A stretch of DNA of 64,000 nt from Caldicellulosiruptor hydrothermalis 108 (lineage in GTDB: Bacteria; Bacillota; Thermoanaerobacteria; Caldicellulosiruptorales; Caldicellulosiruptoraceae): assembly GCF_000166355.1 (NCBI RefSeq), contig NC_014652.1, positions 1,958,928 to 2,022,927 of the forward strand. The letters are read 5' to 3'. The position numbers and the translations under genes were made by a program. Under the pieces are notes generated by a model. It was not told the DNA's origin. It searched no databases and saw only the letters and a list, made by a program, of their open reading frames with translations. Shown one piece after another: positions 1-60,039 of the stretch. Position 1 is the first letter of the stretch. The number at the start of each line of letters is the position of its first letter.

Positions 1-1177
1 TCACATTTTTGAGGTTTTCAAAGACTTCCTTGGGTTCTATTATTTGTCCAACTAATGCCTGATTTAAATAAAAACTCAGAAGATCCCTTGGACTGTCATA
101 TATAGCCATCAGGGCTGTTTTATAATAGTTTATTGCACTTTCATATTCGATATCATCAATCTTCCCATTTTTGATATCCTCTATCTGCTGCAAAATCAGA
201 TTTAAAGCCTTTTCATAGTTTTCAATCTCAATTCCAGAGCTAATAATCATTACAGATTTGAACCTGTCAATCCTTGAAAATACGTAGTAGCACAAAGAAG
301 CTTTTTCGCGAACATTTTCAAAAAGTTTTGATTTTGGAGATGCTCCTAAAATTCCGTTGAGCATCAAAAGTTTGTAATAATCCTCAGATGTCACATCCAC
401 ATTTGTTCTTATCCCAAGGGCAATTTTGCCTTGATTTACTTCCATTTCTTCTGTTACATATCTTGTGTTTTCAAATGGAATGTTTACAAAAAAATCATTG
501 TGTATACTCTCTCTTTTTTCCTCTCCAAAAATCTCTAATGCTTTTGAAGTTGCCCATTCTTCATCATAGTCACCATAGACAAACACGTACATAGGCTTTT
601 TGGTAATAACCTCTTGGTATTGTGAAAAGAGCTTTTCTTTTGTGATGGTTTGCAAGTCATCAACATTTCCTTTTTCATAAAGAGCATAATTTTGCCCCTC
701 AAACATAATCTCTATACATCTGTCAATTGCATATTGAACCTTGTCGTTTATCCTGCTTTCAATCTCCTGTTTTAGATTGTTCTTCTCTTGCAAGATAGCA
801 TCTTCTTCAAAGCCACCACCATACTTTATCGGACCATATATGATGTCATGCAAAAACTGTAGCGCTTTTGTGTAAAGGTTTTCCCCTGCAAATCTATCGT
901 TTAAAAAGCTTATTGCAAATGAAATTGCCTGCAGGTCACCCTTTTTATCCACATCAATACTCAGCGTCGCACCATACATATTGTCCAAAAATCTATTTAT
1001 TTCTTTCATATCCTTGTACTTATTGTTCCCTCTTATTAAGACCATTGGAAATAGAGCATTTAAAGTATTTTTTTCTTTTTCAAGCCTGTCTATAAAGGTA
1101 ACTGAAATCCTGTTTATCTTGAACCTGTCATCACAAAACGCCATATAAAAATTGTTGTTTTTCTCCTTCCTTTGCAT
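1..1177 (-). CDS. M16-like peptidase homologue, YfmF type (partial, 3' end outside window)
   Basis: The first 392 codons are visible; the gene runs off the left edge. The start is the ATG at 1177, preceded by GAGGAG seven bases upstream. The N-terminal domain has the pitrilysin-like fold pattern NALFPMVLIRG followed by NRFLDNMYGATLSIDV, but no HxxEH zinc motif is visible, so this copy is probably not a peptidase. This matches the non-catalytic YfmF-type partner of M16 pairs that Firmicutes often encode next to a YfmH-type catalytic subunit, which would lie to the left. The family assignment is by sequence memory and moderately sure; the exact role is not shown here. Confidence 0.7.
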   Translation of the reverse strand, partial: MQRKEKNNNFYMAFCDDRFKINRISVTFIDRLEKEKNTLNALFPMVLIRGNNKYKDMKEINRFLDNMYGATLSIDVDKKGDLQAISFAISFLNDRFAGENLYTKALQFLHDIIYGPIKYGGGFEEDAILQEKNNLKQEIESRINDKVQYAIDRCIEIMFEGQNYALYEKGNVDDLQTITKEKLFSQYQEVITKKPMYVFVYGDYDEEWATSKALEIFGEEKRESIHNDFFVNIPFENTRYVTEEMEVNQGKIALGIRTNVDVTSEDYYKLLMLNGILGASPKSKLFENVREKASLCYYVFSRIDRFKSVMIISSGIEIENYEKALNLILQQIEDIKNGKIDDIEYESAINYYKTALMAIYDSPRDLLSFYLNQALVGQIIEPKEVFENLKNV

Positions 1178-43289: not shown

Positions 43290-43344
43290 TTAATTATAAA
43301 ACCATTTCCGATTTAAAATGAACATTTGGGAGGGAATATTTAAG

Positions 43345-44829
43345 ATGATTCAAAACATACCTGAAGTAAAACTTGGAATTGTGGCAGTCAGCAGAGACTG
43401 TTTCCCAGTCACACTTTCCGAAAAGAGAAGAAAAGCAGTCGTTGAAGAGTGCAAACGTCTTGGCATTGACATCTTTGAGGCAAAGACAACAGTAGAAAAT
43501 GAAAACGACGTTTTAAAAGCCTTAGACGAACTTAAAGCAGCAGGTGTAAATGCTCTTGTTGTGTATCTTGGAAACTTTGGCCCAGAAGGACCTGAAACAA
43601 TGCTTGCACAAAAGTTCGACGGACCTTCCATGTTTGTCGCAGCAGCTGAAGAGACACAAGAAAATCTGTTTGACGGTCGTGGCGATGCTTACTGTGGTAT
43701 GCTAAACGCTTCGTACAACATAGGTCTTAGAAAGCTCAATCCTTACATTCCTGAGTATCCTGTTGGAGATAGCAGCGAGGTTGCAAACATGATTGCACAT
43801 TTTGTAGATGTTGCAAGGGTTGTGATAGGAGTAAAGAACCTTAAAATCTTCAGTTTTGGACCACGTCCACAGGATTTCCTTGCATGTAACGCACCAATAA
43901 AGCCTCTTTATGACCTTGGTATAGAGATAATGGAAAACTCTGAGCTTGACCTGTTTGAGGCTTTCAACAACCACAAAGACGATCCACGTATACCTGAGAT
44001 TGTAAAACAAATGCAAGATGAGCTTGGCACTGGCAACAAACACCCAGGAATTTTGCCAAAGCTTGCTCAATATGAGCTCACTTTGATGGACTGGTATGAA
44101 AAATATCGCGGTAGCTGTAAGTTTGCAATATTTGCTAACAAGTGCTGGCCAGCTTTTCAGACACAGTTTGGGTTTGTTCCATGCTATGTAAACGCAAGGC
44201 TTGCATCAAGAGGTATTCCAGTTGCATGTGAGGTTGATATATACGGGGCACTGAGCGAATATATAGTGACACTTGCAACACAGCTTCCCGCAACAATCCT
44301 TGATATAAACAACACAGTGCCAAAAGATATGTACGAGGCAAACAAGGACAAGTTCAAAGATTACAAGCTAACAGACCTTTTCATGGGATTCCACTGTGGA
44401 AATACTCCAATTTGCCACATGAAATATGCAGAGATGAGATACCAGCTCATTATGCACAGACTTTTAGAACCTGACAAAGAACCCGACATCACACGCGGAA
44501 CACTTGAAGGCGCAATAAAACCTGGTGAAATAACAATATTCAGGCTTCAGTCAACAGCCGATTGTTTGCTCAGGTCGTACGTTGCACAGGGTGAGGTAAT
44601 TGACGTTGACCCGCGTTCGTTTGGTGGAATTGGTGTGTTTGCAATAAAAGAAATGGGAAGATTCTACAGATACGTTCTGATTCAAAAGAGATTCCCGCAT
44701 CACACAGCAGTTGCATTCAAACATGTTGGAAAAGTTCTATTTGACGCAATGAAAATGCTGGGTGTTGATGACATATCGTTCAATCAACCAGCAAATATGC
44801 TCTACAAGGACGAAAATCCGTTTAAATAA
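43345..44829 (+). CDS. L-fucose/L-arabinose isomerase family protein
   Basis: 494 residues from the ATG at 43345, with GGGAGGG ten bases upstream; the ATG at 43318 has no ribosome site. It belongs to the fucose isomerase-like family (COG2407): VKLGIVAVSRDCFPV at the start, ALVVYLGNFGPEGPE, and a metal-site region near the C-terminus with FMGFHCGNTP. Substrate is unknown; possibilities include L-fucose, L-arabinose or a 6-deoxy sugar. It converges on rhamnose isomerase with a shared terminator. Confidence 0.85.
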   Translation: MIQNIPEVKLGIVAVSRDCFPVTLSEKRRKAVVEECKRLGIDIFEAKTTVENENDVLKALDELKAAGVNALVVYLGNFGPEGPETMLAQKFDGPSMFVAAAEETQENLFDGRGDAYCGMLNASYNIGLRKLNPYIPEYPVGDSSEVANMIAHFVDVARVVIGVKNLKIFSFGPRPQDFLACNAPIKPLYDLGIEIMENSELDLFEAFNNHKDDPRIPEIVKQMQDELGTGNKHPGILPKLAQYELTLMDWYEKYRGSCKFAIFANKCWPAFQTQFGFVPCYVNARLASRGIPVACEVDIYGALSEYIVTLATQLPATILDINNTVPKDMYEANKDKFKDYKLTDLFMGFHCGNTPICHMKYAEMRYQLIMHRLLEPDKEPDITRGTLEGAIKPGEITIFRLQSTADCLLRSYVAQGEVIDVDPRSFGGIGVFAIKEMGRFYRYVLIQKRFPHHTAVAFKHVGKVLFDAMKMLGVDDISFNQPANMLYKDENPFK

Positions 44830-44897: not shown

Positions 44898-46178
44898 TTA
44901 TATCCTACTTTTCAACACCTTATCCTCGTATTCCTTTACTTTGTCAAGCCAGCTGCTTCCAACAGGGACATTACTTTCATAGCAGAACTTGTTCCACACA
45001 GCACCAAATGGCAAAGTTTTGAACTCTTCCAAAAGCGCAAGCCGTTTCCCAAAATCCCCTTCATTTTCAGCTTCATTTAAAAGATGTGTTGGTTCAAGCA
45101 AAGCGTACAGAATTGATTTTAAAGCAGCTCTTGCGCCTGTCACCCAAGCAGTAATCCTGTTTATGCTTGCATCAAAAAAGTCCAATGCAAAAAACACCCT
45201 GTCAAAAGCATCTGCCCTTTTTACTTCCTGCGAAACAGACAATACCTCATCGTTCAGCACAACAACATGGTCACTGTCCCATCTCATACCACGGCTCAAA
45301 TGCAAAAGCACCTTCTTTGAAAATGCTAAAACTGATGAAATCTTGTCAGCCACACTTTCTGTCGGATGGAAATGTCCAAGGTCAAAACAAATTGCTATAT
45401 CGTGCTTGCTTGTAAAAACATAGCCCATGTAAAACTCATGAGAACCAACAACAAATGCCTCAGACCCAATTCCGAAAAGCTTGCTCTCAACAGAATCAAC
45501 AAGATAAGTTTTGTCAACCGACGCAGCAAATATCTCATCTAAAGACTCTTTCAAAATCTTCCTGTGCTCATACCTCTTTGCTGTAAAGTCTTTCGACCCA
45601 TCAGGAATCCAAATGTTGTTTATACAAGTCTTTTTTAGTTCTTTCCCTATTTGGGATGCAATTTCTCTTGATTTTACACCATGCTTTATCCAGAACTTTC
45701 TGACACCTCTATCTGTGCTTGAGAGCGTGTATCCTGACTGTGCCTTTGGATGGGCAAAAAATGTGGGATTAAAATCAAGCCCTATATCCTTTTCTTTTGC
45801 CCACTTGAGCCACTTTTCAAAGTGGTCAATTGAAAGCTCATCCCTGTCAACCTTTTTTCCATTTGTCTCAGCATATATAGCGTGAAGATTTACCTTATGC
45901 TTACCAGGAATGAGACTCATAGCAAACTCTAAATCAGACCTGAGTTCATCTCCGTTTCTCGCCCTGCCAAAATAGTTTCCTGTTGCTAAAATTCCGCCAC
46001 CGCCCATGCCTTTTGTTGCTTCTTCAAACCCTGTCACATCATCGCCCTGCCAGCAATGAAGCGAAATACTAATTCCCTTCATCTTTTCTAAAACTTCATC
46101 TGTGTCAACACCATATTCTTTGTAAACCTCTTTCGCCCTTTCGTAATCGGCAAGAATCTTTTCATAACTTAAGCTCAT
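44898..46178 (-). CDS. rhaA: L-rhamnose isomerase
   Basis: 426 residues. The family pattern SISLHCWQGDDVTGFE is at residue 36, with IYAETNGKKVDRDEL, LDFNPTFFAHP, and metal ligands in FDLGHFHPTESVADK. It converts L-rhamnose to L-rhamnulose. GGGAGGG precedes the ATG, 24 bp after the DeoR-type regulator. It is the last gene of an unusually long operon that also encodes a 2-oxoacid dehydrogenase complex. No rhamnulokinase gene is in the window. Confidence 0.95.
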   Translation of the reverse strand: MSLSYEKILADYERAKEVYKEYGVDTDEVLEKMKGISISLHCWQGDDVTGFEEATKGMGGGGILATGNYFGRARNGDELRSDLEFAMSLIPGKHKVNLHAIYAETNGKKVDRDELSIDHFEKWLKWAKEKDIGLDFNPTFFAHPKAQSGYTLSSTDRGVRKFWIKHGVKSREIASQIGKELKKTCINNIWIPDGSKDFTAKRYEHRKILKESLDEIFAASVDKTYLVDSVESKLFGIGSEAFVVGSHEFYMGYVFTSKHDIAICFDLGHFHPTESVADKISSVLAFSKKVLLHLSRGMRWDSDHVVVLNDEVLSVSQEVKRADAFDRVFFALDFFDASINRITAWVTGARAALKSILYALLEPTHLLNEAENEGDFGKRLALLEEFKTLPFGAVWNKFCYESNVPVGSSWLDKVKEYEDKVLKSRI

Positions 46179-47009: not shown

Positions 47010-49481
47010 TTATATACCAAGTCTATTTGTCCTTAAAATCTCATTTGTTGTGAAGTTGTTCTTTGGCACATGACCTTTGAGCGGCATAATCCTCTCATGG
47101 ATTGCGTCAATAATCCAGTCAGCTTGCGGGAAGAAATAGTTTTCAAATTCGTATGCAGGGACAATCCAGTTTTTAGAACCAACTACAACAGGTGGCGCGT
47201 CAAGATAGTCAAATGCGAGGTCGGCAATTGTTGTTGCCATGTCTTTCAAAATTGAGCCCCTTGCACATGCGTCAGAAGCCAGCACAATTTTCCCTGTTTT
47301 TTTGACAGATTCAATCACCTTCTCATAGTTAAAAGGTACGAGCGACCGCGCATCAATGATTTCAGCACTAACACCATACTTTTCTTCCAAGATTTTGGCT
47401 GCATCAAGTGCTCTGTACAGCGTTGCTCCAACTGTCAGGATTGTAATGTCCTTACCTTCTTTTTTGATATCAGGTTCGCCAATTGGAACCTCATAATATC
47501 CTTCCGGTACACCTTCTTTGTGGAAAAGCTCTCCAATGTCATATAGTCTCTGGCTTTCAAAAAATATCACTGGGTCTGTAGAAGACAGTGCGCTGTTCAT
47601 AAGACCTTTTGCATCATAAGGTGTTGCTGGGAATACAACTTTAAGTCCAGGAATGTGAGAGACAATAGAAGACCAGTCTTGTGAGTGTTGTGCACCATAT
47701 TTTGAACCAACAGAAACCCTCACAACAACAGGCATCTTCAATGTCCCTGCGCTCATTGCCTGCCATTTTGCAAGCTGATTGAATATCTCATCCCCTGCTC
47801 TTCCGATAAAATCACAGTACATTATCTCCACAACAACCCTGCCACCACACATCCCATATCCAACTGCAGACCCAACTATTGCACCTTCTGAGATACAGGT
47901 GTTAAACAGTCTGTGGTATGGGAGCGACTCTGTAAGTCCTCTGTAGACCGCAAAAGCTCCACCCCAGTCGCGCAAGTCTTCCCCGTATGAGATAAGTGTT
48001 GGGTCTGTATAGAACTTGTCAAGCAGCGCTTCAAATATTGCATCTCTGAGATTGAACACCTTTGCCTTTGGAACAGGTTTTCCGTCAACAATTCCTACTC
48101 TTATTTTGTTTTTTATCTGTTTTACGCGCGGATTTTCTTCTTTTGGAATCAAAACCTCAGGAGTTCTGTCTTCCATCTTCTCAATCTTCTGGTTTGAGAA
48201 CATATATCTTGCTATACCATCAGGGTCTTTCACAAGATTTATTCTTGGCGAAACATTTTCATCAACAGCAAGAGCACATATCCTTGTTATAAGCTCTTTC
48301 ACATAGCTTTGAATCTCCTCTATCTTTTCTTCTGTCACAACACCTGCTTTGATTAACTCATCCTTATAAGTTACAATTGGGTCTTGAGCTGCCCATGCCT
48401 CAATCTCCTCTTTTGTCCTGTAAGAAGATGAGTCAGATGGAGAGTGGCCTGTGAGCCTGTATGTGACAATGTCCAAAAGTACCGGGCCTTGTTTTTGTTG
48501 CAGCAGGTATTTCTTTCTCTTCATTGCATCAATTACAGCCAGTGGATTGTAGCCATCAACACGCTCAGCATGCATCTGCTCAGGGTTAACACCTGCTCCG
48601 ACTCTTGCAAGCATGTCATATCCCATTGTCTCGCCGCGTGTCTGCCCGCCCATAGCATATTGATTGTCCATAAAATTGAAGATTATTGGAAGACCACCTC
48701 TGTATTCATCATCCCACAATTTTTTGTATTGGTCCATTGAAGCAAGGCACATAGCCTCCCATACAGGTCCACACGCCATCGAACCATCGCCAATATTGAC
48801 AACAACAATGCCATTTTTCTTATTGATTTTCTTAAACAAAGCTGCTCCTACTGCAATGTCAGCAGACCCGCCAACAATTGCATTGTTCGGGTAAATTCCA
48901 AATGGTGGGAAGAACACATGCATAGACCCGCCAAGACCTTTTTGGAAGCCTGTTTCTCTTCCAAATATCTCGGCAAGCGTGCCATACAAGAAAAAATTGA
49001 CTGCAAGTTCTTTAATGCTTGAGATATTTTTTAAGTTTTCTTCCACAACTCTAAGTATTGCTCCATCAAAATAGCTCTCCATGATTTTTAAAAGCTCATT
49101 GTCACTGAGCTTTTCAATTGTTGAAAGGCCTTTTGCTATAACCTCTCCATGACTTCTATGTGAACCAAATATAAAGTCATCTTTATCAAGCACAAAAGCC
49201 TGGCCAACCGCTGCTGCTTCCTGACCAATCGACAGGTGTGCCGGTCCCGGATAGTCATACTTTATTCCATTGTACTCCCCAGTTGTTTTTATTAAAGAGA
49301 GCATTGTTTCAAATTCGCGGATTATAAGCATGTCTCTGTAAATTCTAATCAGCTGGTCATCCGAAAAGTTTTGTCTCTCCTCTTCTAAGGTTTTGTTATA
49401 CTGGTTTACAGGAATATCAAAAAATTTTATCCAGCCACTTTTTCTTACCTCGTTCGGGTCAATAAACTGTGACTTTGGCAT
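47010..49481 (-). CDS. 2-oxoacid dehydrogenase E1, fused alpha and beta
   Basis: About 823 residues. The first 440 form an E1-alpha with the thiamine-diphosphate site [16 protein letters not shown]; the remainder is an E1-beta ([32 protein letters not shown]). Fusion of both subunits is less common than separate genes. It decarboxylates a 2-oxoacid and loads the acyl group onto the lipoyl arm of E2. Substrate is unknown; pyruvate, acetoin or a branched-chain acid are candidates. GGGGAGG lies 12 bases before the ATG at 49481. Confidence 0.92.
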
Positions 49482-49507
49482 CTTTAAAATCAACCTCCCC
49501 TACAAAT

Positions 49508-50878
49508 CTAAAGTTCAAATATGACCTCTCTTATGATTTCGCTAACCGTCGGATGTGGAAATACAATATCCTTTATATCTTCAGCCCTCAGTTGTGATTC
49601 AATCATCACACCAACACCGTAAATTATTTCTGAGCTGTAGTTTCCTATCATGTGACAGCCAAGTATTGTTCGTTTCTTTCTATCAATCAATATTTTGTAA
49701 AGCCCGTCAAATTCTTCATTTTCGGCAACAAACCTCCCACTGTAAAGCATGGGAAGCTTTACAACTTCATATTCCAAAGCTTTTTCTTTTGCCGACTCTT
49801 CGCTCTCGCCCACCCATGCAACCTCCGGGTTTGTATATACAACAGAAGGAATAGAATCATAGTTCACTTTTACTTTTCTCCCCAGCATATTCCATACAGC
49901 AACCTCTGCTTCTCTGTATGCTGTGTGAGCAAGCATGAGCTTTCCATTTACATCCCCCGCAGCATACACCTCTTGAACATTTGTCTTCATTCTCTCATCT
50001 GTTTTTACACACCCTTTTTCAACCTCAACTCCTATGTTTTCAAGTCCAAACCCTGTTATATTTGGTCTTCTTCCGACGCTCAGCAAAACTTTCTCTGCCT
50101 CTTTTTCGAAAATCTTTCCATCTTTTTCATACACCACTTTTCGGTCATCAATTTTAGTAACTCTTGCTGAAAGTTCAAACTCAACTCCCTTTTTCTTGTA
50201 TGCTTCAAGCAGTATATTCGAAATTTCCCTGTCCATGCTGCCGCCAATGTGGTCAAGCATTTCAATCACAGTCACTTTTGAACCTGCCGAATTGAAATAT
50301 GACGCCATCTCAAGCCCAACAATTCCCCCACCAATCACAACCATCGATGCTGGCACACTTTCAATCTCAAGAATTTCTCTGTTGGTCAGCACAAAACCTC
50401 TTTCAAGCCCCTCTTTCACGCCCTCAATTGGTGGAATGAAAGGCGAAGAACCGGTGGCAATCAAGAGCCTATCTGTGGCAAATTCTTTATCGCCCACCGC
50501 TACAATATATCCTTTGCTGTTTCTTCCCAAAATCTCTCCATGGCCGCTGAGTATTTCAGCACCGCTTTTTCTGAGCTTACTTTTTATTCCTGTCACAAGA
50601 GTTTTTATTACTTTGTCTTTTCTTTCAAGAACCTTTTTGTGGTTTAATGTAATATTTTGTATTTCAACTCCATATTTAAAACCTTGTTTTGCGCTGTCTA
50701 AAATCTTTGCACTGTACAGTAGTGTTTTTGTAGGAATACACCCCTCGTTGAGACAAACACCGCCCAAATACCTTTCTTCTATCAAGAGCGTTTTGAGTCC
50801 TCCTTTTGAAGCTCTTTCTGCTGCCAGATACCCCGCAGGTCCACCACCTATGATTATTAGGTCGTATTTCATCTGCAT
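49508..50878 (-). CDS. lpdA: Dihydrolipoyl dehydrogenase (E3)
   Basis: 456 residues. FAD-binding IIIGGGPAGYLAAERA, redox-active pair CLNEGC in GGVCLNEGCIPTKT, NAD site VVIGGGIVGLEMASY, and the C-terminal His in FPHPTVSEII. It reoxidises the dihydrolipoyl arm of E2 with NAD+. It lies between E2 and E1 with 14-bp or so gaps. The ATG at 50878 has GAGAGGG five bases upstream. Confidence 0.97.
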   Translation of the reverse strand: MQMKYDLIIIGGGPAGYLAAERASKGGLKTLLIEERYLGGVCLNEGCIPTKTLLYSAKILDSAKQGFKYGVEIQNITLNHKKVLERKDKVIKTLVTGIKSKLRKSGAEILSGHGEILGRNSKGYIVAVGDKEFATDRLLIATGSSPFIPPIEGVKEGLERGFVLTNREILEIESVPASMVVIGGGIVGLEMASYFNSAGSKVTVIEMLDHIGGSMDREISNILLEAYKKKGVEFELSARVTKIDDRKVVYEKDGKIFEKEAEKVLLSVGRRPNITGFGLENIGVEVEKGCVKTDERMKTNVQEVYAAGDVNGKLMLAHTAYREAEVAVWNMLGRKVKVNYDSIPSVVYTNPEVAWVGESEESAKEKALEYEVVKLPMLYSGRFVAENEEFDGLYKILIDRKKRTILGCHMIGNYSSEIIYGVGVMIESQLRAEDIKDIVFPHPTVSEIIREVIFEL

Positions 50879-50898
50879 TTTCACCCTCTCTAAATAAT

Positions 50899-52260
50899 TC
50901 AGAGTGCCAAAAGCAAATCAAAGTTTTCTAAAAGCTCCTTTAAATCTTTCAAAAACCTTGCTGCATCGGCTCCATCTAACGCTCTGTGGTCAAATGTTAG
51001 TGATAGCCCCATTGCAGGATAGAATTTTATATGTCCATCTTCTTCCTTAGGCCTTTGAACAATTGAATTTACACCTAAAATCCCTGTCTGAGGAGGATTT
51101 AGGACAGGTGTGAAACTTTCTATGCCAAAGCTTCCTAAGTTAGTGACAGTGAATGTCGCTCCTTTTAAAAGATCTGGTGATATGGTTCCCTTTTTGCAAA
51201 GAGCAATTAGCTCCTTTGCTTCTTTTGAGATTTGGCTCAAACTCTTTTGGTTACAATTGAATATCGTTGGCACCATAAGACCACGCTCTGTGTCAACTGC
51301 AAACCCAAGATGAACATTCTTGAAATATCTCATTTTATTATCCAAAAAATGGCTATTGAGCGACTTGTGTTTTGGTAAAATCCTTGAGACAGCAAAAAGG
51401 ATTATATCGTTTATTGTGATATCCTCAAGTCCCAGTTTTTCTCTGTTTTCTTTTACCTTTTTCCTAAACTCAAGAACTTTAGATGCATCAAATGATGTAT
51501 GTAATGTCAGCTGAGCTGTTGTGGTAAGTGATAGATACATAGCCTTTGCGATAGCCTTTCTGATGTTAGATAGCGGCACATCTTCATATTCTACATTCTG
51601 CCCAGAAGACTCAGAAGTTTTTGAGACATAGCTTTCCTGCTTTGCCCTTTCAATGTCAAAAGTTGTAATTCTACCACCAATGCCAGTTGGCTCTAAAACT
51701 TTAGCATCGTCAATTTCTTTTGTTTCCTGCTTTGCCGCACTTGTAAAAACAGGACCTGACTCAAAAAGCTTTAAAATGTCTCTTTCAATTATTCTTCCGT
51801 CCGGTCCTGAAGGTTTTGCAAACCTAAAATCAACATTTAATTTTTCAGCTAAGTTCTTTGCCCTAGGCGAAATTTTTATTTTTCCTTCAGTTTGTAAAGA
51901 AGCGTTTGGAATTTTTTCTTCAGTTTCCATCGGCACCTCGTGGTCAGATGCCTGTAAATCCAAAACCTCATCTTTTTTAGATTCCAAAGATGCCTTTGGA
52001 TTGAACTTTTCTACTTTCTCGCCATGTTCACCAATCACACACACATTTGTCAAGACAGGAACCTCTTCACCCTCTTCAAAGAAAATGTCAAGAAGCACAC
52101 CACTTACCTTTGCTTCCTCATCAAAGCTTGCCTTGTCAGTCTCGTAAGAAAATAAAAGGTCGCCAACCTCCACCTTATCGCCCTTTTTCTTGTGCCACTT
52201 TGTAATTATACAGCTTTCAACAGTCTGCCCCTGCTTGGGCATTATCACAGGCACCGCCAT
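50899..52260 (-). CDS. 2-oxoacid dehydrogenase E2 (dihydrolipoyl acyltransferase)
   Basis: 453 residues from the ATG at 52260 (GGAGG eight bases upstream). One lipoyl domain occupies residues 1-76 with the lipoylated Lys in YETDKASFD. A peripheral-subunit-binding segment (ISPRAKNLAEKLN, GPDGRIIERDI) is followed by a second similar tail (GIGGRITTFDI), so the linker looks partly duplicated. The catalytic domain ends with the DHRALDGADAARF active site. First gene after its own promoter (52352-52380). Confidence 0.95.
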   Translation of the reverse strand: MAVPVIMPKQGQTVESCIITKWHKKKGDKVEVGDLLFSYETDKASFDEEAKVSGVLLDIFFEEGEEVPVLTNVCVIGEHGEKVEKFNPKASLESKKDEVLDLQASDHEVPMETEEKIPNASLQTEGKIKISPRAKNLAEKLNVDFRFAKPSGPDGRIIERDILKLFESGPVFTSAAKQETKEIDDAKVLEPTGIGGRITTFDIERAKQESYVSKTSESSGQNVEYEDVPLSNIRKAIAKAMYLSLTTTAQLTLHTSFDASKVLEFRKKVKENREKLGLEDITINDIILFAVSRILPKHKSLNSHFLDNKMRYFKNVHLGFAVDTERGLMVPTIFNCNQKSLSQISKEAKELIALCKKGTISPDLLKGATFTVTNLGSFGIESFTPVLNPPQTGILGVNSIVQRPKEEDGHIKFYPAMGLSLTFDHRALDGADAARFLKDLKELLENFDLLLAL

Positions 52261-52351
52261 ATCAAAAACCTCCATTTGAGCTGTTTGTTTGTTTCAATAT
52301 GTTTGATATATTTTTTCATCTATCATGTTAACTTTTTTCATCTCCAATTTA

Positions 52352-52380
52352 ATAGTATCATTTTGTTTGTTTTTTGTCAA
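52352..52380 (-). promoter_or_regulatory. Promoter of the E2-E3-E1 section
   Basis: Minus strand: consensus -35 TTGACA (52375-52380), 17-nt spacer, -10 TACTAT (52352-52357). About 25 bp downstream is GTTAACATGATAG, which shares CATGTTAA (other strand) with the SDR leader. Confidence 0.75.
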
Positions 52381-52408
52381 TGTTATTTTGATTTTTGTCT
52401 TTTTAATT

Positions 52409-53284
52409 TCATATTTTGCGGATATTTTCAATTATATCTTTTGCATCCTCTGCCATATATGAACTTCTCACAAGAGGACCTGACATAACAAACTTAAATC
52501 CTATTGAAATTGCAAATTCTTTGTACTCTTCAAAGACATCTGGATGAACAAACTCAACAACAGGATGGTGATTTTTGGAAGGGGATAGGTATTGTCCTAT
52601 TGTTACAAAATCACACTCTGCTTTTCTTAAGTCTTCAAGCGCCTTTTTAACTTCATCTTTTGTCTCACCAAGTCCAACCATGATACCCGATTTTGTAAAT
52701 ATATTCTTATCAATCTCTTTTACCATCCTCAAGACATCAAGCGACCTTTTATAACTTGCCAAAGGTCTTACGCAGGGATATAACCTTTCGATGGTCTCTA
52801 TGTTGTGTGCAACAACATCGGGTGAAGCTTCTACAACTTTTGAAACTGATTCAAAACTACCTTTAAAGTCAGGAATTAGAACCTCAATCTTTGTGTGTGG
52901 GCTTTTTCCTTTTATGCTTCTTATGCACTCTGCAAAGTGAGAAGCTCCACCATCTGGCAAATCATCCCTTGTAACAGAGGTTATAACAACATACTTTAGT
53001 CCCAATGCACCTACAGCATTTGCAACCATCTTAGGCTCATCACTATTTAACTTCACAGGTTTCCCTTTCTTGACATCACAAAATGTGCAGTTTCTTGTGC
53101 ATACATCTCCCATAATCAAAAATGTAGCAGTTTTTTTTGAAAAACACTCATAAATGTTTGGACACTGAGCTTCTTCACACACCGTGTGAAGAGAAAACAT
53201 TTTTAAAATTTCTATGACATCATCTATTTTTTGATCTGCCTTTACTCTTATCTTCAGCCAATCAGGCTTTTTTAGATAGCTCAT
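52409..53284 (-). CDS. lipA: Lipoyl synthase
   Basis: 291 residues. LipA inserts two sulfurs into protein-bound octanoate. The auxiliary cluster cysteines are in CEEAQCPNIYEC, the radical-SAM site in CTRNCTFCDV, and the conserved C-terminal Ser in PLVRSSYMA. Its start overlaps lipB by 4 bp. Encoded with E2, its presumed client. Confidence 0.98.
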   Translation of the reverse strand: MSYLKKPDWLKIRVKADQKIDDVIEILKMFSLHTVCEEAQCPNIYECFSKKTATFLIMGDVCTRNCTFCDVKKGKPVKLNSDEPKMVANAVGALGLKYVVITSVTRDDLPDGGASHFAECIRSIKGKSPHTKIEVLIPDFKGSFESVSKVVEASPDVVAHNIETIERLYPCVRPLASYKRSLDVLRMVKEIDKNIFTKSGIMVGLGETKDEVKKALEDLRKAECDFVTIGQYLSPSKNHHPVVEFVHPDVFEEYKEFAISIGFKFVMSGPLVRSSYMAEDAKDIIENIRKI

Positions 53285-53991
53285 CTTTCCATACCTTCTT
53301 GTGTTTGAATTTTTAGCAAATTGAAAAGCTCTTCTTTGTCCAAGATATTCAAACTCCTGCCGAAAACCTTTCCAAAATAAGTCTGAACCTTATCAACCAC
53401 ATCTTCAAACAGAATTGTACTTCCAATCAGTCTTTCTAAGGATGTAACGCCTCTATCTTTCAGTCCGCACGGGATAATCCACGAAAAGTGTTCAAGATTT
53501 GTATTTACATTGAAAGCAAACCCGTGCATGGTTACCCACTTTTTAACTGCTATACCTATAGCAACTATCTTGTCATTGCCAACCCAAACACCCGTGTATT
53601 TATCTTCATCCCTGCGCGCTTCAACTGCATATTGGTCTTTTAAAAGCCTTATAAAAACCTCTTCTAAAAGATACACAAACTTTTTTATGTCTCTATCTGT
53701 CAAAGCCAAATCAAAAATTGGATACCCAACAAGCTGACCAGGACCGTGGTATGTCACATCCCCACCACGGCTTACCTCAAACACCTTGACACCCATTTTC
53801 TCTAAAAATTCCTCTGACACAAGGATGTTTTTCCTACTGCCACGTCTTCCTATTGTGATAACAGGTGGATGTTCAAGCAGCAGCAGTATGTCACCAATCT
53901 TTTTTTCAACCCTCAAAGACCAAATGCTCTCTTGAATTGAAAGAGCTTCCTGATAGTCTACCTTTTCTAAATAACAAACATTTATACACAC
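53281..53991 (-). CDS. lipB: Octanoyl transferase
   Basis: LipB transfers octanoate from acyl carrier protein to lipoyl domains, the step before LipA. The active site is recognisable: RGGDVTYHGPGQLVGYP and the catalytic Cys-Lys region IIPCGLKDRGVTSLE. I prefer the GTG at 53991 (AAGGAAG nine bases upstream), giving 236 residues; a TTG at 54027 is also possible. It overlaps lipA by 4 bp and follows the zinc alcohol dehydrogenase gene. Confidence 0.95.
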   Translation of the reverse strand: MCINVCYLEKVDYQEALSIQESIWSLRVEKKIGDILLLLEHPPVITIGRRGSRKNILVSEEFLEKMGVKVFEVSRGGDVTYHGPGQLVGYPIFDLALTDRDIKKFVYLLEEVFIRLLKDQYAVEARRDEDKYTGVWVGNDKIVAIGIAVKKWVTMHGFAFNVNTNLEHFSWIIPCGLKDRGVTSLERLIGSTILFEDVVDKVQTYFGKVFGRSLNILDKEELFNLLKIQTQEGMER

Positions 53992-54036
53992 TTTGCATAT
54001 CTTCCTTTCATCCTTGCCAATATCCAATTTTAACTG

Positions 54037-55429: not shown

Positions 55430-55479
55430 ACAACATGTATTGTATAATTTATTTTAGATAGAGCAAAAAGACAACATGT
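55430..55479. promoter_or_regulatory. Paired ACAACATGT repeats around the SDR promoter
   Basis: ACAACATGT occurs at 55430-55438 and 55471-55479, 41 bp apart and bracketing a -10 TATAAT (55443-55448). The pattern suggests a repressor or looping site. Confidence 0.4.
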
Positions 55480-55508
55480 TAAAACAATATCAAAGGGGGT
55501 ACTATAAT

Positions 55509-56288
55509 ATGAGCTGCAAACGATTAGAGGGACAGGTTGCGATTGTTACAGGAGCTGCCCAGGGGCTTGGCGAGGCTTTAGCAAGAAGACTTGACAAGGA
55601 AGGTTGTAAGGTTGTTGTTGCAGATATAAATTTGGAAGGTGCTCAAAAAGTTGCAAGCGAGCTATCCGAAGCTATTGCTGTAAAGTGTGATGTTACAAAC
55701 GAACAAGATGTCGAAGCAATGGTCGACAAGACAATTGAAACTTTTGGCCAGCTTGATTTGATGGTTGCAAATGCCGGAATACTGATTGCAAAGCCTATTA
55801 CAGAATTTTCACTTGCTGAGTGGAAAAAGGTAATCGATGTAAACCTCATTGGATATTTCTTGTGCGCAAGAGCCGCAGCAAGGGTTATGATTCCACGCCG
55901 AAAAGGAAATATAATCCAGATAAATAGTAAGTCCGGAAAGAAAGGATCATACAAAAACTCTGCATACTCTGCATCAAAGTTTGGTGGAATTGGTCTTACA
56001 CAGAGCTTAGCACTTGAGCTTGCAGAGTACGGGATAAGAGTAAACGCAATATGCCCGGGAAATCTGCTTGATTCACCTTTGTGGGTAAACAGCCTTTATG
56101 AGCAGTACTCCAAAAATCAAGGACTTACACCAGAACAGATAAGAGAAAAGTATTTGAGCCAAGTACCACTCAGGCGCGCCTGCACATATGACGATGTTGC
56201 AAATGTGCTCGTATTTTTAGCATCTGATGAGGCAAGCTACATGACAGGGCAGGCTATAAATGTAACAGGTGGTCAGGAAATGAGATAA
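55509..56288 (+). CDS. Short-chain dehydrogenase/reductase (sorbitol-6-phosphate dehydrogenase-like)
   Basis: 259 residues from the ATG at 55509 (AAAGGGGG ten bases upstream). NAD site TGAAQGLGEALA, structural NAG in VANAGIL, catalytic Ser in QINSKSG and Tyr-x3-Lys in YSASKFG. The C-terminal GGQEMR and overall pattern resemble sorbitol-6-phosphate 2-dehydrogenase (SrlD), or the SDR half of RhaE-RhaW-type enzymes. It is co-transcribed with the PHP protein gene, 28 bp downstream. Confidence 0.9.
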   Translation: MSCKRLEGQVAIVTGAAQGLGEALARRLDKEGCKVVVADINLEGAQKVASELSEAIAVKCDVTNEQDVEAMVDKTIETFGQLDLMVANAGILIAKPITEFSLAEWKKVIDVNLIGYFLCARAAARVMIPRRKGNIIQINSKSGKKGSYKNSAYSASKFGGIGLTQSLALELAEYGIRVNAICPGNLLDSPLWVNSLYEQYSKNQGLTPEQIREKYLSQVPLRRACTYDDVANVLVFLASDEASYMTGQAINVTGGQEMR

Positions 56289-56316: not shown

Positions 56317-57618
56317 ATGGCACAAGTTGAGTTTGAGCTTGAAAAAGAACTAAATCATGAAGATAAGGAGAGAAGACTTGAATCTCTTTTAAAGTTTTTT
56401 GAGCTTGTCAGGCAAGGCAAGATTTCATTGCTACCAAAAAGTAGTGTCATTAACAATCACATACATACATTCTACTCATTTTCACCATACTCTCCTTCAA
56501 AGGCAATCTACATGGCGGCAAAAAGCGGTCTTCCGACAGCAGGTATAATGGACCATGACACCATAGCAGGCAGTGAAGAATTTATCTCTGCCGGGAAAAT
56601 AGCAGGTATTGCAACAACAATTGGTGTTGAGTGCAGAGCTGACTTTTCAAAAACCTTGCTTTCTGGCAAAAAGATAAATAATCCTGACCAGCATTCTATT
56701 GCTTATGTTGCAATTCATGGAATTCCACATAACCAAATTGAAACTGTAATGAACTTTTTCAAGCCGTATATCGAAATAAGGATGAAAAGAAATAGGCTGA
56801 TGGTGGAAAACATCAATAGTCTTCTTTCAAAGTATGAAATTGCTTTGGATTTTGAAAAGGATGTTGTGAGTATTTCAAAATATAAAGAAGGTGGCACTGT
56901 CACAGAAAGACACATACTTTTTGCTCTTGCAAAAAAACTCATCGAAAGAGTTGGCAAGGGAAAAAAATTGATAAATTTTCTTAAAGATGAATTGAAAATT
57001 GAGATTAGTAAGAAGGTAGAAGGTTTTCTCAGCGATGAGCAAAACCCTTTTTATGAATATGACCTGTTAGGTCTTCTCAAGAGCGATTTTACTCCAAAGT
57101 TCTATATAAATGCCACAGATGAGTGCCCTGACATAAAAGAGGTTGTAGAGTTTTCACATAAGATAGGTGCAATAATTGCATACGCATACCTTGGTGATGT
57201 TGTTGAATCTGTCACAGGCGATAAAAGAAGTGAAAAATTTGAAGATGATTATCTTGAGCTTTTGTTTGAGGTTTTGGATGAGCTTGGCATAAAAGCAGTG
57301 ACATACATGCCGTCAAGAAATACTCTTTCTCAGCTCAAAAGAGTAAAAAACTTATGTGAAAAATATGACTTTCTTCAGATAAGCGGTGAAGACATAAACT
57401 CACCCCGCCAAAGTTTTATATGTGAAGCATTAAAACAGGATGAGTTTAAACATTTGATAGATACTACATGGGCTTTGATTGGACATGAAATAATGGCAAC
57501 AGAGGACAAAGAACTTGGATTTTTTTCAGATAAAATGCAAGAAAAATTTCCAAATTTAAGAGACAGAATTGAATATTTTAAAAATATTGGTCTTAAAATG
57601 TGGTCAAAATCAGATTAA
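56317..57618 (+). CDS. PHP-domain metal-dependent hydrolase
   Basis: 433 residues. The PHP metal site appears as NNHIHTFYSFSPYS and GIMDHDTIAG, with a later EDINSPRQ. PHP proteins are metal-dependent phosphoesterases, but no substrate can be assigned. It is paired with the SDR in one plus-strand operon in the sugar region. GGAGAAAG precedes the ATG. Confidence 0.88.
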   Translation: MAQVEFELEKELNHEDKERRLESLLKFFELVRQGKISLLPKSSVINNHIHTFYSFSPYSPSKAIYMAAKSGLPTAGIMDHDTIAGSEEFISAGKIAGIATTIGVECRADFSKTLLSGKKINNPDQHSIAYVAIHGIPHNQIETVMNFFKPYIEIRMKRNRLMVENINSLLSKYEIALDFEKDVVSISKYKEGGTVTERHILFALAKKLIERVGKGKKLINFLKDELKIEISKKVEGFLSDEQNPFYEYDLLGLLKSDFTPKFYINATDECPDIKEVVEFSHKIGAIIAYAYLGDVVESVTGDKRSEKFEDDYLELLFEVLDELGIKAVTYMPSRNTLSQLKRVKNLCEKYDFLQISGEDINSPRQSFICEALKQDEFKHLIDTTWALIGHEIMATEDKELGFFSDKMQEKFPNLRDRIEYFKNIGLKMWSKSD

Positions 57619-57677: not shown

Positions 57678-58727
57678 TTATTTTGCCATTTTCTTTAATA
57701 GTTCTTTTCTATATTTTTCACTCTCCCAGTTTTTGATATATTCCATTTCATTCTGTGACATAGTTTTTATAGTAAGACTAAACTTGTTTATTTTAGTTAT
57801 CACATAAAGATAAGCAAGCAAAGTCTCTTCAGTTGCAAGCGCTTCTGAATAGGCTGCATTGTATATAACTCTGCCTCTTTGTAAATCTATTTCTATCTTT
57901 GGATTTTCTGCATACAGACTTGAGTTTATATAAACAAGCTGGTCAGGATAAAGAGGATATTTTTCAAATAGTTCAAATTCAAACTTTTCTGACTTTATAA
58001 AATCCAAGATAAACCTTGTTCTGCTCTGGTATCTGTTATCACCAATTTGTTTTAGCACACAAGAAGGATATCGTCCTCTTATTTTGAACCACCTTTTTAT
58101 CAAAAGGTTAACCCTTTCATGCACCTCATAGACTTCTTTCAAATTATCTGAAGACACAATAAGTCCATGATTTTCCATGAAGATTACCTTTGGCCTTTTA
58201 TCTTCAGCTGGCAGGCTTCTAAGCTGGTTTGCAATTTCAATGGTCAATGAAAAACCAGGATTGATATAAGGTATCCAGATAAAGTTAAAATTTTTATCTT
58301 TAAATATTTGGTAGCAAAGCTGCCTGCCTTCACATGAACAAGCCAAGATATTAGCATATACAGAATGAGAGTGGATGACGTATCTATCAAGTACAGAGTG
58401 AAACCCTACTTCCACTGATGGTCTTAAAACTTTCCCAGAAAAACTTAAACTACTTTTTTGAGCAATTTCAAGACTTTCTTTTTCGTAGTCTTTGTTCTGT
58501 GAAAGATTTACATTCTCATAAAAGCTTTTTATTTTTTGATAGTCTACAATTACATACCCGTCTTCTTCTGTCACTTGGTCAAGCCTAAAACCAGAGGCTT
58601 TTATTGCCATATACTGAGAATCAAGCTTTACAGAAATATTTCCCCCGCCACCCTGAACATAGTCAATCTTTCTGCCAATTTTCTGGCACAGCCATACAAG
58701 CTCTTGTAAGGTTTTATTTCTTTCCAT
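57678..58727 (-). CDS. Class II aldolase/adducin family protein
   Basis: 349 residues. The aldolase domain shows GGGGNISVKLD, RPSVEVGFH, the zinc His pair IHSHSVYAN, and MENHGLIVSS. A further 130 residues continue past the usual 220-residue fold; this long form resembles the N-terminal aldolase part of bifunctional rhamnulose-phosphate aldolase/dehydrogenases (RhaE-like). If so, the separate SDR at 55509 could supply the second activity. Metal ligands are intact. Confidence 0.82.
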   Translation of the reverse strand: MERNKTLQELVWLCQKIGRKIDYVQGGGGNISVKLDSQYMAIKASGFRLDQVTEEDGYVIVDYQKIKSFYENVNLSQNKDYEKESLEIAQKSSLSFSGKVLRPSVEVGFHSVLDRYVIHSHSVYANILACSCEGRQLCYQIFKDKNFNFIWIPYINPGFSLTIEIANQLRSLPAEDKRPKVIFMENHGLIVSSDNLKEVYEVHERVNLLIKRWFKIRGRYPSCVLKQIGDNRYQSRTRFILDFIKSEKFEFELFEKYPLYPDQLVYINSSLYAENPKIEIDLQRGRVIYNAAYSEALATEETLLAYLYVITKINKFSLTIKTMSQNEMEYIKNWESEKYRKELLKKMAK

Positions 58728-58752: not shown

Positions 58753-60039
58753 TCACAGTTTAAATGCTCTTTCTATCTCTTCAATTTCTTCTTGGCTTAT
58801 TAGCACAACATCACCCAACCTCTTTGCATCTATGATAGCCTTTGCAGTAAACTCCAGCACCTCAAGTTTGTCAAATGCATCTAAAAGGTCTTTACCAACA
58901 ACAATTACACAGTCATTTTCAACAATCACAGCTGGAGTCTCCTTAGAAAACACATCTGCAGTCATTTTTGGCTGCATAAACGATGAACCAAACGGAATTT
59001 TCTTAACGTTTCTGAGAGAAATATAAGTTTCGGGTATTGTTTTTGAATCAAACTCATTTTCTGTCACTGCAAAAGCCATTATGTTTGGCGGATGAGCAAT
59101 TATTATCGCGTTGACATCAGGATGCTTTTCATAGATATACTTGTGCAACAGCACTGACCTGCTCGGCCTTTTCCCAGCCTCCTTGTACCCATTTTCTATT
59201 CTTACAATATCCTCTGGCTGGATGTATTTTCTATCCACCATGTATGGTGTGATAATAAAAGAATTGCTGCTAAGCCTTTGGGAAAATGTTCCTTGCGTGC
59301 TTGTAAAAAGTCTCTGGTCATATGCCCTGTGGATAAGTTCACACATCTTCTTTCTTGACAGTCTTTCGAAACTTGAATATGTTTTTGGAATGAACTCATC
59401 CATTTGAATATCCTGTTTTGCTTTTGAAATCTCAATGTCTTTGGGTCTGAGTGGTTTTGGCTCACCAATAAGCTTTGCTCTTATCTCAAGCTGAGCACAA
59501 AAATCAAGCGTTTCAAACGCCATAAACGCTTTGAAAAGGTTTTCTGCACCTACAACAATCCCGTGGTTTGCCAAAACAGCTGTTGATACCCCTTTTTTGA
59601 ATGTATCAGCTATCTTTTGACCAAGCTCAGTGCTTCCCGGCAAAGCATAGTCAACAAGCTCAACTTCGCCGCATATGAGATGAACATTCGGAATCAGTTT
59701 TGTATTTGGAATTTTGCGTGCAAGCGAAAATGCCATAATCGCCGGTGGGTGCGCATGAATTATTGCTTTTATATCAGGCCTTGCCCGGTATATCATTTCG
59801 TGAAACGGAAGTTCAACAGAAGGCTTGTGCTTGCCAATAATCTCTCCATCTTCTTTTACCTGGACGATGTCGCTACTTTTTAAACTTCCTTTGTCTATGC
59901 CAGAGGGTGTAATCCAGATATCGCCGTTGTCGTCTTTAATTGATATATTGCCACCAGACGTTGTTGTCATACCATAGCCGTATATCCTTTCCATTATCAT
60001 AACTATCTGGTCGGCTGGATGTAGTAGTTCAAAATTCAT
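58753..60039 (-). CDS. Tandem class II aldolase protein with a degenerate second domain
   Basis: 428 residues containing two aldolase/adducin domains in a row. The first keeps all zinc ligands: E76 in PSVELPFH, H95 and H97 in HAHPP, H159 in ANHGIV. The second, from about residue 225, repeats the fold (RRAYD-like helix, TQGTFSQRLSS, IIAHPPNIMAF) but lacks the first His, and has S in place of the Glu and D in place of the NHG His, so it should not bind zinc. The role of the second half may be structural. Substrate unknown. Confidence 0.85.
   Translation of the reverse strand: MNFELLHPADQIVMIMERIYGYGMTTTSGGNISIKDDNGDIWITPSGIDKGSLKSSDIVQVKEDGEIIGKHKPSVELPFHEMIYRARPDIKAIIHAHPPAIMAFSLARKIPNTKLIPNVHLICGEVELVDYALPGSTELGQKIADTFKKGVSTAVLANHGIVVGAENLFKAFMAFETLDFCAQLEIRAKLIGEPKPLRPKDIEISKAKQDIQMDEFIPKTYSSFERLSRKKMCELIHRAYDQRLFTSTQGTFSQRLSSNSFIITPYMVDRKYIQPEDIVRIENGYKEAGKRPSRSVLLHKYIYEKHPDVNAIIIAHPPNIMAFAVTENEFDSKTIPETYISLRNVKKIPFGSSFMQPKMTADVFSKETPAVIVENDCVIVVGKDLLDAFDKLEVLEFTAKAIIDAKRLGDVVLISQEEIEEIERAFKL

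Follow-up and report, generated by a model that had tools for sequence, protein, structure and literature searches.

Bacterial L-fuculose-1-phosphate aldolase (FucA) is described as a homotetramer with four equal active sites, each built by two adjacent subunits, and the residues that reach a site from its neighbor include Y113', M114', V202' and F206' (PMC11274987), with Y113' reported to act on the C4 hydroxyl (PMC11841055). The related DrdA of Bacillus thuringiensis, a 5-deoxyribulose-1-phosphate aldolase, is likewise reported as a tetramer that depends on manganese (6btd, 6btg; PMC6079011). FucA of Escherichia coli and DrdA are single-domain proteins. In contrast, the gene considered here, which resides on the minus strand of a 64,000-nucleotide stretch from Caldicellulosiruptor hydrothermalis 108 (NC_014652.1, positions 1,958,928 to 2,022,927; the whole stretch is called the window below), encodes two unlike aldolase domains fused in tandem, one of which has no metal site.

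Two other described systems bring inactive proteins into shared assemblies. The class II aldolase domain of adducin (8iah) is an inactive fold found in heterotetramers of unlike domains (PMC12599920). Adducin is an animal actin and spindle protein, however, with separate alpha and beta chains, and without an active partner domain, whereas the tandem protein carries a presumably active and an inactive half on one chain. Trypanosomatid deoxyhypusine synthase forms one working tetramer with a dead paralogue and is reported to be activated 3000-fold (PMC3663545). That system resembles ours in bringing catalytic and dead relatives together, but its partners come from separate genes. The deoxyhypusine synthase fold is unrelated to the class II aldolase fold. 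A third comparison is suggested by the RhaE-like neighbor of the tandem gene, P0002, since RhaE and RhaEW are described as class II rhamnulose-1-phosphate aldolases of rhamnose clusters (PMC3870299). RhaEW differs from the tandem protein in joining an aldolase to a dehydrogenase rather than to a second aldolase. Open-access literature on tandem or pseudo-domain class II aldolases yielded no description of the tandem protein, and that on rhamnose and the locus tags covered only the gene cluster, with no account of the protein itself.

The gene and its halves are placed as follows.

58753..60039, minus strand: tandem class II aldolase gene (428 amino acids), an open reading frame with an ATG start whose translation holds two PF00596 stretches
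59419..60039, minus strand: half 1, residues 1-207, with a complete metal site; FucA-type structural match with Z about 26, ligands invariant wherever sequence exists
58756..59418, minus strand: half 2, residues 208-428, a metal-less aldolase domain, of full length in its lone structure prediction

A Pfam profile search finds two matches to Aldolase_II (PF00596) in the protein, and in a genome-wide search with this model half 1 scores 161 bits and half 2 scores 97.3 bits. Because the gathering cut-off is 22.2, the two-domain assignment is not due to chance, and by profile score and fold alike both halves belong to the class II aldolase/adducin family. The full-length AlphaFold2 model is confident as a single unit, with a predicted local distance difference test score (pLDDT) of 91.9 and a predicted template-modeling score (pTM) of 0.89. 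Half 1 has the same fold as E. coli FucA (1fua, 1dzv; Z 25-26), with tandem residues 4..209 lying on FucA 1..206, and it gives the best PDB sequence match, to DrdA. Since structural searches with the whole model aligned half 1 in most cases, half 2 was modeled alone. On its own it has the predicted fold of a complete aldolase (pLDDT 91.3; against 1dzv, Z 24.4 and a root-mean-square deviation of 2.3 over 187 residues), which bears out the description of the second domain as full length in an earlier note on this DNA. No NCBIfam model among the 25 matches listed of 30 exceeds its own cut-off for the tandem protein. The L-fuculose-phosphate aldolase equivalogs fall below theirs (NF005302, 184.2 versus 264; TIGR01086, 110.6 versus 400.25), as does the rhamnulose-1-phosphate aldolase RhaD (NF002963, 62.7 versus 170). 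The methylthioribulose-1-phosphate dehydratase MtnB (TIGR03328) is a near miss at 133.7 versus 137.05, a score summed over one stretch per half.

An alignment of half 2 was used to scan 84,980 species genomes; the scan returned 200 relatives, and the best 80 of these were analyzed. The resulting 83 rows comprise the window protein and 82 relatives, namely the 80 loci, one genus member and the genome G359. Metal ligands were mapped by reference to E. coli FucA (E73, H92, H94, H155; sequence from NC_000913), which places the corresponding codons as follows.

59812..59814, minus strand: E76 (FucA E73), half 1; E in 82/82 rows with sequence
59749..59757, minus strand: H95-A96-H97 (FucA H92 and H94), half 1; both H in 82/82 rows with sequence
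59563..59565, minus strand: H159 (FucA H155), half 1; H in 83/83
59155..59157, minus strand: S295, in place of the catalytic Glu, half 2; S in 81 and A in 2 of 83
59092..59100, minus strand: I314-A315-H316, half 2, with H316 the sole survivor of the pair; position 314 is I66 V16 L1, position 316 is H in 83/83
58912..58914, minus strand: D376, in place of the third His, half 2; D75 E4 Q3 K1 of 83

The earlier note had assigned E76, H95, H97 and H159 to the first domain, and had read Ser, Ile/Ala and Asp with a single remaining His in the second. The FucA alignment agrees with this numbering, and the half-2 residues are S295, I314, H316 and D376, with E76 corresponding to S295, H95 to I314, H97 to the retained H316 and H159 to D376. 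The FucA-type metal site (Glu plus three His) is therefore present in half 1 and absent from half 2. It is complete in every row with sequence there, one row having no such part, and three of its four residues are missing from half 2 in all 83 rows. Half 1 also keeps the equivalents of FucA N29 and S71, with Ser for T26. A salt bridge between R294 and D376 in place of the metal was considered but is not put forward, as these positions exhibit no clear covariation (R-D 65, K-D 9, R-E 4, R-Q 3, R-K 1).

The fused aldolase, with its one metal-less half, is genuine and broadly conserved. Among the best 80 of the 200 relatives, the carriers belong to Clostridia, Caldicoprobacter and Paenibacillus, along with one Calditrichales genome. 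The tandem gene is present in 10 of 12 genus genomes, and an even sample of the phylum (398 genomes) recovers it in the eight sampled genus members and in G359 (67% identity). Both halves lie in a single open reading frame in 80/80 loci, two of which (L062 and L072) run into contig ends; no free-standing half 2 was seen in these loci, and the one pattern match among viruses is not a relative. Since none of the 83 rows, drawn from the best 80 of 200 scan matches, has two complete metal sites, the loss is not recent in this lineage. Furthermore, the residue pattern is uniform across the rows, and so the replacement is older than all members seen; on this evidence the metal-less state of half 2 is old.

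Purifying selection on half 2 is strong, as the ratio of nonsynonymous to synonymous substitution rates (dN/dS) against nine genus members is 0.019-0.055 for half 2 and 0.038-0.070 for half 1. Recent pseudogenization is ruled out by the low dN/dS together with the fixed replacements. Half 2 is conserved among its relatives as strongly as half 1 (mean column entropies of 1.10 and 1.09 bits, which are equal, over 207 aligned pairs), and it retains 33 invariant columns in 67 sequences with identity down to 57%. That half 2 has been retained for a function, as the earlier note suggested, is thus upheld by the dN/dS values and invariant columns; the note named a structural or regulatory function, and the pattern of residues suggests a more specific one, the supply of neighbor residues. 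In a phylogenetic tree each half forms one supported clade, with a stem branch of 3.02 for half 2 and 1.56 for half 1 followed by similarly slow rates. A sister relationship of the halves that excludes single-domain aldolases is not rejected (approximately unbiased test, p-AU 0.293). An origin by duplication, as implied by the term 'duplicated' in the earlier note, is therefore possible but not proven.

Residues that face a neighbor in FucA exhibit the opposite distribution between the halves from those of the metal site, as represented by the following elements.

58762..58764, minus strand: codon of F426, equivalent to the neighbor residue FucA F206'; F in 83/83, with the half-1 equivalent Q209 being Q in 44/83
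59011..59037, minus strand: half-2 loop I335-P-E-T-Y-I-S-L-R343, in the region of FucA Y113'; P336, E337, Y339 and R343 in 83/83
59674..59694, minus strand: half-1 loop 116-122, variable at 118-122; position 118 is N54 T17 D4 S4 E2 G1 C1

Residue pairs were mapped and ranked over 82 rows and 207 pairs of half-1 and half-2 columns. In the FucA F206 column, F426 is present in 82/82 rows and Q209 is Q in 43/82. The equivalence of Q209 with F206 agrees with the structural alignment of half 1, and that of F426 is also found in two profile alignments, one of which pairs F426 with F210 of S. pneumoniae FucA. An alignment to RhaD made in search of a neighbor Glu gave no useful placement of half 2. The V202 column holds I422 in half 2 (I67 L15 of 82) and S205 in half 1 (S in 51%, also Y, N and A). 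The half-1 loop conserves P117 (82/83), and its position 120 is occupied by H24 K20 N9 Y9 and others. When the 207 pairs are ranked by excess conservation in half 2, H120/Y339 is first, V119/T338 second, L121/I340 fourth, Q209/F426 fifth and N118/E337 twelfth. The columns of FucA 113, 114, 202 and 206 rank 25, 94, 16 and 5 (Mann-Whitney p 0.0099); a wider set of eight loop and tail positions, picked after their conservation had been seen, gives p 2.5e-5.

Single-domain relatives generally carry both the loop Glu and the metal-binding His. The loop Glu is present in 33/38 of their genes, or 16/19 groups at 80% identity (37/42 by rows), and the three metal-binding His are complete in 38/38 genes with sequence (42/42 by rows). 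The tandem protein divides these features, with the loop Glu kept as E337 in 83/83 half-2 rows and found in 2/83 half-1 rows, and the His set present in half 1 wherever sequence exists and never in half 2. What each half has given up, its partner can provide through an interface.

One arrangement would explain this division, and we give it about an even chance of being correct: the protein would be a fused, asymmetric FucA-type enzyme in which the dead half 2 completes the live site of half 1 in an alternating ring. From conservation, two tandem chains are predicted to assemble their four domains into a ring in which halves 1 and 2 alternate, equivalent to the usual aldolase tetramer. Half 1 would provide the whole metal site and the catalytic Glu, and each such site would face a half 2, which would give the residues otherwise contributed by a FucA neighbor, namely the C-terminal Phe (F426), I422 and the invariant PE-x-Y...R loop. 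The reverse interface would be dead, with half 2 lacking the metal and the neighbor-facing residues of half 1 having drifted. Because the ring would alternate and its reverse interface be dead, half 2 would act as a pseudoenzyme fused to its live partner, altering or completing that copy and finishing two active sites in each assembly. By homology and context, the enzyme would split a phosphorylated ketose, which may be a 6-deoxyketose, in a retro-aldol reaction.

A number of observations weigh against this arrangement. The position of FucA Y113 is dependent on the alignment, falling at I335 in one and I340 in another and in neither at Y339, such that the loop is uncertain by a few residues; for this reason Y339 is only near FucA Y113, with equivalence unproven. 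No Tyr occurs at the Y339 column in the single-domain relatives aligned, and the M114' column exhibits no asymmetry between the halves. The test of four residues was run after half 2 had been inspected, and its columns are not independent. The superposition on FucA stops at FucA residue 192 and leaves the last half-2 helix unmatched. Most of the aligned single-domain relatives do not conserve FucA F206 itself, and so F426 speaks for kinship with FucA-like tails rather than for a universal residue. Furthermore, half 2 fixes a pocket of its own (T248, T251, S293, R294, D269-R-K), which goes beyond the needs of a donor. For the set of residues acting in cis, conservation in half 1 does not significantly exceed that in half 2 (p 0.12), because the residues that replaced them are fixed in half 2.

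This pocket is the basis for a different reading, which we consider unlikely, wherein half 2 serves as a regulatory domain that binds a ligand without metal, its old phosphate pocket having been rebuilt to sense a sugar phosphate or other anion and to tune half 1. The pocket is fixed yet chemically altered: T248 (FucA T26), T251 (N29) and S293 (S71) are each present in 83/83 rows, as are R270 and K271, with R294 (FucA S72) being R74 K9 and S295 (E73) being S81 A2. A long stem (3.02) followed by slow change likewise fits a new and retained role. These fixed residues may instead fill the vacated metal site, however, and the positions that half 1 would contribute to the half-2 pocket (118-121, S205, Q209) are not conserved. 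A broader version is rather unlikely in our judgment: half 2 would do more than lend interface residues and would work as a remodeled sugar-phosphate site, free of metal, for regulating or processing the half-1 substrate, in a widespread and unrecognized two-site enzyme of Firmicutes, possibly for deoxysugar metabolism.

Half 2 might instead be a structural partner only, with fusion stabilizing the ring and the lost site otherwise meaningless. The window host and Caldicoprobacter are thermophiles, in which a fused ring could help, and the predicted fold of half 2 is complete. Against this, many carriers are gut metagenome bins rather than thermophiles, and half-2 conservation peaks at former active-site and neighbor-facing positions (E337, Y339, R343, F426, T248 and T251 are invariant), such that we regard a purely structural role as improbable. 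We hold it highly improbable that half 2 has gained a catalytic site of a new kind, using other metal ligands or no metal, in a bifunctional protein. H316 (83/83) and H299 (82/83) do persist beside D376 and C377, and class II aldolase folds are reported to have adopted other chemistry, as in pyruvic oxime dioxygenase (PMC11841055). However, the usual catalytic Glu is gone from half 2, and no convincing conserved set of alternative ligands was found there, which leaves the metal-less reading of the earlier note standing: D376 is E, Q or K in 8/83 rows and C377 is S in 13/83, unlike strict ligands. Taken together, the tandem protein is a variant of a known fold and most likely an asymmetric enzyme whose dead half would complete the live site.

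The genomic context bears on the substrate, and two genes of the window define it.

57678..58727, minus strand: P0002, a RhaE-like single class II aldolase (PF00596), 25 bases downstream of the tandem gene
44898..46178, minus strand: L-rhamnose isomerase RhaA, in the same cluster; above cut-off for NF002203 and TIGR01748

The tandem gene, P0002 and a full RhaA co-occur in an identical 10 of the 12 genus genomes. Of the two without the tandem gene, one has no RhaA match and the other has a RhaA remnant of 55 positions with a stop (G008:C1:1981141-1981305); the latter genome also lacks P0002, as would follow from loss of the cluster. The cluster Csac_0865-0876, which probably corresponds to that of the window, is reported to be strongly upregulated on rhamnose, and its absence to correlate with the failure to use rhamnose (PMC4187192). 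An activity as rhamnulose- or fuculose-1-phosphate aldolase, which would split the ketose-1-phosphate into DHAP and lactaldehyde, has the rhamnose cluster of the genus as its context.

Across the 80 loci, neighbors include relatives of P0002 (18), PHP-domain proteins (12), short-chain dehydrogenases/reductases (SDR; 11), alcohol dehydrogenases (6) and RhaA (5), and a P0002 relative is present in each of the five loci where RhaA accompanies the tandem gene. Among 40 tandem genomes that we chose from the 80, which are partly related and include other phyla, RhaA is present in 27, P0002 in 18, a FucI-like isomerase in 14 and either isomerase in 35, leaving five with neither. For comparison, RhaA or a FucI-like isomerase is found in 33/389 sampled phylum genomes, with the genus, G359 and five weak FucI-like matches left out. 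A plant-fiber lifestyle may be the cause of the isomerase excess in tandem genomes.

A role for the tandem protein as the sole rhamnulose-1-phosphate aldolase is weakened by a PF00596 protein that lies close or next to rhaA in 4 of the 11 further RhaA regions considered. These regions, which do not include that of G411, are from carriers lacking a P0002 match; the PF00596 test covered all of them except L160 and L169, and the RhaE- or RhaEW-type protein lies near rhaA in L161, L163, L164 and L170. In L162, L165, L166, L167 and L168, the one or two open reading frames tested in each gave no PF00596 match; a frame of 718 amino acids from L165 matches nothing in Pfam and is possibly antisense. 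The presence of a RhaE-type aldolase with rhaA speaks against a simple role of the tandem protein as the rhamnulose-1-phosphate aldolase, and by homology retro-aldol cleavage of some phosphorylated ketose would be its default reaction. P0002 itself has its best NCBIfam matches to aldolase/SDR models, all below cut-off.

Other genes of the neighborhood were recorded as well. An SDR gene at 55476-56288 (plus strand) is above the cut-off of NF009050, a sorbitol-6-phosphate dehydrogenase model, and like P0002 it matches aldolase/SDR fusion models below cut-off; together they resemble RhaEW divided into two proteins. The rhamnose cluster also holds a FucI-like isomerase (Fucose_iso_C, 503 amino acids, 43318-44829, plus strand), a relative of which (76%) is divergent beside the tandem gene in L052. 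FucI-like isomerases occur in 8/13 tandem genomes without RhaA versus 6/27 with RhaA (Fisher p 0.031). Inside the cluster is a pyruvate-dehydrogenase-like set (47010-54027, minus strand) with a fused E1 of 827 amino acids and with E3, E2, LipA and LipB assigned by reading the sequences; in L101, too, relatives of E2 and E3 lie close to the tandem gene. A PHP-domain protein of 433 amino acids (56317-57618, plus strand) has relatives near the tandem gene in 12/80 loci. Directly upstream of the tandem gene in L049 (6004-7248), L050, L051 and L061 is a phosphofructokinase family gene, identified by PF00365 in L049 and by membership in the same sequence cluster in the other three.

For annotation, the name 'L-fuculose-phosphate aldolase' assigned by domain content is unsafe for this family of Clostridia and Paenibacillus. 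If the proposed arrangement is true, the family would represent a natural experiment in active-site sharing, wherein a symmetric homotetramer has been replaced by a complementary fusion in which one half carries the metal and the other contributes neighbor-facing residues, each having lost what its partner provides. Such proteins would offer a direct view of the class II aldolase residues that act across the interface, in a two-site enzyme whose half 2 would be a separate handle for engineering.
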